This document shows, in pieces, positions 6,642-13,308 of a stretch of 42,774 nt of DNA. The notes beneath the pieces were generated by a model. It searched no databases. It saw only the letters and a program-made list of their open reading frames with translations, and was not told where the DNA came from. The stretch covers positions 1 to 42,774 of the IMG/VR virus record IMGVR_UViG_3300011116_000716. One strand, written 5' to 3'. The stretch is from a virus. Made by a program: the position numbers and the translations under genes. Position 1 is the first letter of the stretch, and every line of letters starts with the position of its first letter.

Positions 6642-6842
6642 ATGAAAAAACTAACGGGTAAAAAATACGAAACAGAAATGCGCCGCCTTCAACATGAAGA
6701 GCAAATCTTATTAGAAGACATCGCAGAGCTAGTAGAAAAAAGAAATAAAATCAGAAGAAAGGGGGTTGCTTTAGTGAAAAAGCCTTTGAAGGTTTTGCAG
6801 GATAAGCTTTTGGCAATTAAACAACAAATGAGAGGTTTATAA
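6642..6842 (+). CDS. Small coiled-coil basic protein, 66 residues
   Basis: Start placed at ATG 6642, with GAGGT 6 bases upstream. An in-frame ATG at 6630 would overlap the preceding gene further and include the ribosome binding site. The product is lysine- and arginine-rich with a heptad-like helix (EEQILLEDIAELVEKRNKI). Function unknown. It overlaps the next gene by one base. Confidence 0.6.
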   Translation: MKKLTGKKYETEMRRLQHEEQILLEDIAELVEKRNKIRRKGVALVKKPLKVLQDKLLAIKQQMRGL

Positions 6843-7030
6843 TGAACGAAAAATTACAAGAAATTTTAGTTGCGATCGCATTAATTGCGGCTCTAGTAGC
6901 TTTTATGGTTTGGAATGTATTAACAGAAATCGAAGAAACAGAGCAAGAACAATTTGGGAAAATTATCGAGTCAACTTGGAATAAAGAATTTGACCAAGAA
7001 AAAGTCTTGACAGCTCCGATTTTTGAATAA
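6842..7030 (+). CDS. Small single-pass membrane protein, 62 residues
   Basis: One hydrophobic helix near the N-terminus (ILVAIALIAALVAFMVW, residues 8-24) followed by an acidic soluble tail rich in Glu/Gln. This resembles a bitopic inner-membrane protein with its C-terminus in the cytoplasm or periplasm. Function unknown. It is the last protein gene before the structured RNA island. Confidence 0.6.
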   Translation: MNEKLQEILVAIALIAALVAFMVWNVLTEIEETEQEQFGKIIESTWNKEFDQEKVLTAPIFE

Positions 7031-7062
7031 ATAAATGGGGTGCGGTTCCTTCATTTCCGCCT

Positions 7063-7118
7063 GCCAGCGCAGACCTCACCTACCTCAAGGCTTTCGGTTC
7101 GAATCCGACTGCGCTGGC
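7063..7118 (+). other. tRNA-like hairpin with T-arm but no D-arm
   Basis: GCCAGCGCA (7063-7071) pairs perfectly with TGCGCTGGC (7110-7118), like an acceptor stem. Just inside the 3' strand sits TCGG-TTCGAAT-CCGA (7094-7108), a textbook T-arm with T-loop. Only 22 bases lie between the 5' strand and the T-arm, no D-arm or clear anticodon arm fits, and no CCA follows. It may be a decayed tRNA or a tRNA-mimicking domain of the surrounding RNA. Confidence 0.5.
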
Positions 7119-7612
7119 TTTCAATTCAACTGGTTAGATTAATTAAGCGGCCTGAATCCTTTAGTTAATCTGACTTGTTGAGCTGAAAAGCTCTAATACA
7201 CTACGTCTTTAGACGGGGCTTGTTCGTGATACAATGGCTGCGATCTTTCGGGGTTGATGGGTGTCGTTGGGCGAAACTCACGCGCTAAATGGTGCACTCG
7301 TTTAGCAAGCTGCAAGCGATGGAAAGTCTGAGGGAGTAATTACCCTCCACGTTCTGGGGCTGCCAAGGTGTGAACTTGGCTAGTGTTTAATTGAAATCAC
7401 TGCGTAGCGGGGGTTTTGAGAATACTCCCAAGCACAGAGGCGGGCTTCATGCTCGGCGTAGTGATGGCTTGGGGGTTGAATAGTGCCTCCAACGAACCCG
7501 AAAGGATCGCACCAGTGGGGGACATTTTTCTCTTGATTCTTAGAAATAGGGGTTGAGAGTGCTGGAAATAAGTAATCGAGTAGGGCTGGATTATTTATTG
7601 TTATTTTCATAT

Positions 7613-7656
7613 GTCGTGGAGTGCCCTACGCTCCGCGACGCCAAACTACAGTAGGG
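7613..7656 (+). promoter_or_regulatory. H-type RNA pseudoknot over the ribosome binding site of the nuclease gene
   Basis: Stem 1 has 9 pairs (GTCGTGGAG 7613-7621 with CTCCGCGAC 7631-7639, one G-U). Its loop CCCTAC (7624-7629) pairs perfectly with GTAGGG (7651-7656). Connectors of 2, 1 and 11 bases have good H-type geometry. GTAGGG contains the only Shine-Dalgarno-like sequence before ATG 7661, so the fold would hide the ribosome binding site. It may be a translational switch or the 3' end of the structured RNA. Confidence 0.6.
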
Positions 7657-7660
7657 AACA

Positions 7661-8209
7661 ATGCAAATCACATTTTCAGAAAGAGAGTTAGAAGACTTTC
7701 TTTGCACAGGTAAAAATTTAGAGAAATATTTAGGACTAAAGTTTATTGCTCGGCAGGTTAATATTGCGCCAGCTGGAATAATTGATACTTTAGCTTACCA
7801 TAAGCAAAGTAAAACATGGGTTATTATTGAATTAAAAAAGGACATAATTGGAGATGCTGCCCTTTTGCAAATCTTATCTTATTTAAATTATTACAAGGCT
7901 ACAAACCCAGAATTTGAATATAAAGATTTTCTGAGAAAGAGAAAATTTTCAGGATTATTAGTGGGCAGCTCTTTAGATCACAATTCTAATTTTATCCGAA
8001 AAATTTTATGCTCCAAACATAGCCTCTCACACAGAGAAGGCGCTATTTGCTACACGCTATTTAGAATAAACTTAGAAACTGGTATTAGCTTTGATTATAT
8101 GTCACCATTTATAGACTCATACACTAGAGAGTTAGATGATATTAGGTGGGAAGGATTACAAGGAAGGTATCTTAAAATAGATAAAAATTTAAAACATTTT
8201 GAATTTTAA
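7661..8209 (+). CDS. PD-(D/E)XK endonuclease, NucS/DUF91-like
   Basis: 182 residues. The nuclease core is seen at residues 40-80: G39-I-I-D42 (metal ligand), E57-L-K59 (WVIIELKK), and Q70 in LLQILSYLNYYK. This order of ID, ExK and QxxxY is shared with the C-terminal domain of NucS and other DUF91 proteins, which cut branched or mismatched DNA. The N-terminal branched-DNA-binding half of NucS is absent. The gene lies directly before the replication genes, so a role in replication, recombination or host DNA degradation is plausible. Translation may be controlled by the pseudoknot at 7613-7656. Confidence 0.72.
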   Translation: MQITFSERELEDFLCTGKNLEKYLGLKFIARQVNIAPAGIIDTLAYHKQSKTWVIIELKKDIIGDAALLQILSYLNYYKATNPEFEYKDFLRKRKFSGLLVGSSLDHNSNFIRKILCSKHSLSHREGAICYTLFRINLETGISFDYMSPFIDSYTRELDDIRWEGLQGRYLKIDKNLKHFEF

Positions 8210-13145: not shown

Positions 13146-13308
13146 GAATTACCAAGAAGAGCATCTTAAGTTTGTAAAAAAACAAAGAAAATTCTTAGCA
13201 GAAAAGCAAAAGTTTGACGTAGTAATGAAAACTTTTGAATCTGGTATTAAGGCAATAATCTTGGAGCAAGAAAGAATTAATAAACACTTTATTTTGGGTA
13301 AGTTATGA
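13138..13308 (+). CDS. Hypothetical basic helical protein, 56 residues
   Basis: Starts at ATG 13138, overlapping the preceding gene by eight bases, with GGAGG 7 bases upstream. Highly charged helix (EEHLKFVKKQRKFLAEKQKF). No family recognised. Confidence 0.5.
   Translation: MNRNYQEEHLKFVKKQRKFLAEKQKFDVVMKTFESGIKAIILEQERINKHFILGKL

Follow-up and report, generated by a model that had tools for sequence, protein, structure and literature searches.

A phage RNA island made of short structured modules shares a hairpin with a small RNA gene found beside bacterial DUF3800 genes

The window analyzed here, a stretch of 42,774 nucleotides, is a 42.8-kb IMG/VR virus record (IMGVR_UViG_3300011116_000716) that encodes a terminase, a portal protein, and a DnaB helicase. 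Positions 7031-7660 of it, referred to as the island, are an undescribed structured RNA region, which comparison with related phages showed to be a mosaic of short RNA modules, conserved in order and separated by fillers that differ between phages. One of these modules, the hairpin E, recurs in bacteria as a complete small RNA (sRNA) gene next to genes for DUF3800 proteins, which were not found in the virus records carrying E or an island. The reading we favor, with a probability of roughly 0.6, is that the island is a phage-borne RNA array in which at least E mimics or titrates the RNA partner of a DUF3800 defense nuclease.

The 630 bases fill exactly the gap between a small open reading frame (ORF; 6842-7030) and the ORF at 7661-8209, and no plausible gene was seen within them, which agrees with an earlier note on this DNA made from the sequence alone. 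The deviating base composition that it had remarked on was also found (G+C content of 0.43-0.52 versus 0.30-0.41 in the flanks), and a reading frame on the minus strand at 7380-7610, which it had considered as an alternative, is not conserved; modules lie at unrelated spacings in other phages, and 1-nt indels occur within module A. The minimum free energy of the island is −238 kcal/mol (z = −4.3 in one computation and −3.6 in another), compared with −172 for the minus strand, a difference to be expected if a plus-strand RNA uses G-U pairs. Rfam returned no match to the island, either at the gathering thresholds or at E ≤ 10, and no relevant family when the related islands were included; together with the covariation of several helices (see below), this upholds the suggestion of an undescribed structured RNA. 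ARAGORN called neither a tRNA nor a transfer-messenger RNA in the island, and a BLAST search of known phages and plasmids yielded Pseudomonas phage Astolliot, for module A, as the sole match.

An RNA island is present at the same genomic place in at least 14 related phages, always in the early block and ahead of the replication genes. These relatives were collected via the helicase (L002, whose helicase is 71% identical and whose 930-base island has the equivalent position; L and G numbers are our own handles), via the conserved 3′ hairpin D (eight further phages), and via the core of module A. When 15 islands of 270-2330 nt were compared all-against-all, none resembled another from end to end, but many had blocks of ∼30-120 nt in common, with E-values down to 1e-26 and unrelated sequence in between. 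Blocks, when present, follow the order E, G, I, A, B, H, D, with F and C being more variable. L088 and G013 are 99% identical across 247 nt, after which the next 450 nt are missing from L088. The RecT recombinase encoded in the 42.8-kb record makes homologous shuffling of the modules plausible. Some islands (G009, G001, G008, and G012) also contain small protein genes between the blocks. One in G008 is HNH endonuclease-like (L032, 2824-3264) and could drive island movement; a group I intron, considered because of this gene, was discarded as Rfam gave no intron match.

The mosaic arrangement bears directly on the earlier note's comparison of the island with one large, ornate RNA of the GOLLD/ROOL type. 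Like those, the island is a large noncoding phage RNA region, and its size, strong fold, and conserved module order would fit a single scaffold RNA with optional peripheral domains. However, no GOLLD or ROOL covariance model scored in Rfam, the islands span 270-2300 nt with protein genes inserted in four cases, and two of the modules, E and A, are also found singly in unrelated phages or in bacteria. A single scaffold is therefore very improbable, and the island is better described as a series of independent short modules.

Module E consists of a covarying stem that encloses the invariant 16-mer CACUGCGUAGCGGGGG. In the window, it is found at the following position:

7389-7421, plus strand: module E, hairpin TTGAAA-T-CACTGCGTAGCGGGGG-TTTTGA, the same motif as in the sRNA beside bacterial DUF3800 genes

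The 16-mer CACTGCGTAGCGGGGG (7398-7413) forms the loop and is closed by the stem 7391-7396/7414-7419. It is present in 63 viral stretches, ∼23 of which are coding coincidences; the remaining copies are mostly noncoding, and their flanks differ in sequence yet are complementary. In 49 distinct sequences, 92% of the cells of the outer 7-bp stem were paired, and 100 cells had changed on both sides, compared with 24 in shuffled data (reached in 0 of 500 shuffles); pairing was lost when the strands were slid against each other. No variation was seen in the inner CUGC/GCGG or elsewhere in the loop, but the exact search pattern leaves no room for any. The covariance model scores the window at 39.7 bits (E = 9e-9), the window itself being among the 49 sequences from which the model was built. 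U-G and G-U pairs are common in the stem, which identifies the E strand as the functional one, and in phages this is the strand of the early genes. One of the two helices of a pseudoknot proposed in the earlier note (7396-7404/7457-7465) received no support, because 7398-7413 is the invariant E loop, closed by E's own stem; the other (7424-7433/7467-7476) is conserved in G013 (CCCCAAG/CUUGGGG) and corresponds to hairpin Y (see below). No Rfam model matches E, including the DUF3800 RNA families, for which there was no match in 18 genome loci and none in L112 at E ≤ 10. E constitutes a new small RNA family.

A search of bacterial genomes with a 17-mer gave 66 loci, 61 of them noncoding, where E has the anatomy of a complete, tiny sRNA gene, namely, a consensus promoter, a hairpin of ∼35 nt, and a U-run. 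The σ70-like promoter (TTGACA, 16-18 nt, TATAAT) ends directly 5′ of the hairpin and scored at least 8 of 12 in 52 of 60 loci, whereas shuffles reached this score in 17.8 loci (28 at most), and a T-rich run follows on the 3′ side. The 16-nt loop of the bacterial RNA and of the phage copy is identical, whereas the stem covaries. A DUF3800 homologue lies within 1.5 kb in 45 of the 61 noncoding loci. Since only about one quarter of Pseudomonadota genomes (37 of 150) hold any DUF3800 gene at all, this adjacency is not due to chance. The genes concerned encode one protein subfamily (Pfam DUF3800, E = 1.6e-16) and are, in nearly all cases, arranged tail-to-tail with E, the gene lying on the opposite strand and ending 2-30 nt away. 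The DUF3800-E pair is often part of a type I restriction operon: the gene family that follows it in 22 loci reads as HsdR-like with HsdS-like genes close by, as judged from our own reading of the sequences and not from a Pfam test. In other loci, the pair stands alone.

Invariant acidic residues of the E-linked DUF3800 proteins are D7, E8, D63, E129, E147, D154, and D200. Their structure model (predicted local distance difference test score of 94.4) matched RNase HII best among PDB entries (probability 0.97, template modeling score 0.46-0.50), albeit weakly (E = 0.047). The predicted RNase H-like fold agrees with a published assignment of DUF3800 to the RNase H fold, and the family has also been linked to noncoding RNAs and Cas12a2 loci (PMC10910872). 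E is absent from relatives of the E-linked subfamily, although some have another hairpin RNA in the equivalent tail-to-tail position; E is thus specific for its subfamily. A sister subfamily (L187, L190, L192, and L195) has its own convergent hairpin RNA after the stop codon, GGACTGG...CCGGTCGGC(A/G)AAGGGTCTCGG...GGGGCCCTTTTG, and in L190, a promoter-like sequence lies upstream of it. The Rfam DUF3800 RNA motifs (e.g., DUF3800-VIII, RF03075) are likewise structured RNAs linked to DUF3800 genes, but differ from E in that E is tied to one particular subfamily.

On the phage side, DUF3800 was found in 0 of 29 virus records carrying an island or E, some of these records being fragments. When the surroundings of 30 other DUF3800 genes were searched for island modules, only the E copy that had seeded the search was recovered. 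Two further cases point the same way as phage E lacking DUF3800. In a prophage region of Limnoglobus roseus (L099, 2333-2453, minus strand; L053, 65-184), E and the Rfam DUF3800-VIII RNA lie 40 nt apart within a longer noncoding stretch, and phage L041 contains an abiF RNA as well as an E hairpin (1294-1329 and 13212-13227), with neither an Abi_2 gene nor DUF3800.

Because the phage has the E RNA without the protein, mimicry is the simplest mechanism, and E is read as the RNA partner of DUF3800 by analogy with two known systems. Phage PhiTE escaped ToxIN, a type III toxin-antitoxin system, through RNA mimicry, pseudo-ToxI copying the RNA antitoxin (PMC3475682), and the abiF-motif RNA binds the AbiF toxin directly and neutralizes it both in cis and in trans (PMC12373285). 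Pseudo-ToxI and E are both phage copies of an RNA that in bacteria accompanies a nuclease toxin (a putative one in the case of E), and in neither case does the phage carry the toxin gene; however, the partners differ (ToxN versus a DUF3800 protein), and pseudo-ToxI consists of copies of a single antitoxin that emerged in escape mutants, whereas the mosaic to which E belongs is a standing one with many different modules. The abiF RNA of the RCd22-AbiF system is, like E, a small hairpin RNA tied to one protein family, with neutralization in trans shown for abiF, but both family and RNA are different, and E does not match RF03085. In bacteria, the pair would most likely be a toxin or defense nuclease restrained by, or loaded with, its E sRNA. 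Phage modules would be transcribed along with the early genes and shuffled among related phages by recombination. E made early in infection may then bind the DUF3800 protein of the host directly and substitute for, or titrate, host E, so that the protein would stay inactive when phage takeover halts host sRNA synthesis, to the presumed benefit of the phage.

Several observations weigh against this proposal. Toxicity of DUF3800 and its neutralization by E binding are predictions, and E could be an activator or a guide and not an inhibitor. Bacterial E adjoins its putative partner gene, as do the type III-like RNA antitoxins ToxI and abiF, but is a single copy everywhere except in L121, where three tandem copies lie 35-36 nt apart, in contrast to the repeats that make up classical type III antitoxins. 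A bacterial partner is seen for E alone: modules A, B, C, D, G, and I had no match in E. coli genomes, and A had none in 399 Pseudomonadota genomes with up to three mismatches. The hairpin motif of the sister DUF3800 subfamily was not found in viruses by a strict 21-mer pattern, and several of the virus records are fragments. Alternatively, the phage may use E to recruit the DUF3800 nuclease of its host, with E being a cofactor or guide and the target being either the host or competing phages; the reported links of DUF3800 to noncoding RNAs and Cas12a2 loci can be cited in favor of this. The constancy of the E loop, which holds no variable guide, was counted in favor of such a role, but a constant loop without a spacer-like segment is also unlike a guide, and the combination of promoter, hairpin, and terminator more closely resembles an antitoxin sRNA. 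We consider recruitment distinctly unlikely and retain mimicry or titration as the preferred function of E.

The 3′ end of the island and the gene behind it have the following features:

7580-7656, plus strand: module X, a three-strand switch with segment 1 (GTAGGGC, 7580-7586), a hairpin (7613-7621/7631-7639) with segment 2 in its loop (GCCCTAC, 7623-7629), and segment 3 (GTAGGG, 7651-7656)
7661-8209, plus strand: gene under the X switch, PD-(D/E)XK nuclease-like protein (YhcG/NucS-type)

Segment 3 ends 4 nt before the ATG at 7661, at the ribosome-binding site of the next gene. The three segments stay mutually complementary despite sequence change in the window, the G002 group, G006, G007, and L005/G003, the exception being G009, where segment 1 is complementary only in part. 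Pairings 1:2 and 2:3 are mutually exclusive, and X probably acts on the start of the next gene as a translational switch. The product of that gene resembles YhcG_C (7e-6) and NucS_C (7e-5) in Pfam, both below the curated cut-offs, and PDC-S18 in PADLOC (5e-10), with weak similarity to the candidate defense families PDC-S18 and PDC-S02. The whole island might instead be a cis-regulatory 5′ untranslated leader, its hairpins acting on the replication genes downstream at the level of transcription (antitermination), stability, or translation: X pairs with the region just 5′ of the start codon in several variants, the island always precedes the replication genes, and the E and D hairpins are partly terminator-like. 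However, phages whose downstream genes are similar differ greatly in module content, isolated copies of E and A are found in unrelated settings, bacterial E has its own promoter, and X by itself accounts for the cis part. A leader function of the entire island is therefore rather unlikely.

The remaining modules of the window are:

7063-7118, plus strand: module W, stem 7063-7072/7109-7118 around a T-loop hairpin (7094-7108), tRNA acceptor/T-arm-like
7127-7193, plus strand: module U, long hairpin 7127-7142/7164-7180, followed by a GAAA-tetraloop hairpin (7180-7193)
7195-7388, plus strand: module V, structured segment in the center, contributing to the strong fold
7424-7476, plus strand: module Y, hairpin CUCCCAAGC...GCUUGGGGG, with ACAGAG and UGAUGG conserved in the loop
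7479-7525, plus strand: module A, stem CCUCCA/UGGGGG (7486-7491/7516-7521) around the conserved 24-mer ACGAACCCGAAAGGATCGCACCAG
7530-7559, plus strand: module D, G.U-rich hairpin CUCUUGAUUCU-UAGAAAU-AGGGGUUGAGAG

Several of the island's helices covary. W, U, and Y each have one relative, with compensatory or wobble changes. In the relative of W (G013, L029; 76% identity over 99 nt), a C-G pair of the stem enclosing the T-loop (7098-7104) is replaced by U-A; W is called as a tRNA by neither ARAGORN nor Rfam. The long helix of U is kept in G006 (L002/L030; 79% identity over 73 nt) by two-sided changes (CAAC/GUUG to CAAU/AUUG and AUUAA/UUAAU to AUUUU/AAAAU), and the tetraloop hairpin (GAGCU-GAAA-AGCUC) is kept with base changes in G006 and G013 (GAGCU-GAAA-GGCUU), so that both the GAAA hairpin and the T-loop noticed earlier are real. 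Y is kept in G013 (L029) with a change from U-G to C-G. V had no BLAST match in other islands. Of the 15 island phages compared, 11 have A, as does L075, and its stem varies among islands between CCCCCG/CGGGGG, CCUCCA/UGGGGG, and CCUCCG/CGGAGG. The unrelated phage Astolliot has the exact 24-mer inside a tRNA array with yet another stem (CCAUC/GAUGG), and it is this stem change, rather than the weak E-value of 0.05-0.1, that makes the match convincing. A GUGC/GCAC pseudoknot considered for A was dropped, because Astolliot keeps the hairpin without it. D occurs in 14 of the 15 islands, and a second version, CUUGAUUC/GAAUUAAG, has A-U pairs in place of G.U; the D hairpin was not detected across all genome contigs.

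Tentatively, and with less confidence than for E, the other modules may have anti-defense roles of the same kind, each imitating the partner RNA of another bacterial nuclease under RNA control, with recombination swapping modules to suit the defenses of the host. The new RNA family E has a clear protein partner, a DUF3800 subfamily, within bacterial defense loci, and phages carry only the RNA, so that what DUF3800 and the RNAs associated with it do can be tested directly. The finding also points to phage counter-defense built of RNA instead of protein, invisible to gene-based surveys, and the other modules are leads to further RNA-controlled defense proteins.

tRNA-like elements that combine an acceptor stem with a T-arm, some of them with ACCA at the end, were seen in L025 (2954-3031), on the minus strand upstream of E in L017, and in L030 (∼2015-2055); they are not called by ARAGORN and are possibly processing signals or tRNA mimics. 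In L027 and L028 (phages G004 and G007), the D hairpin follows an HsdS-like restriction specificity gene and not an RNA island, and L028 also contains the X switch.
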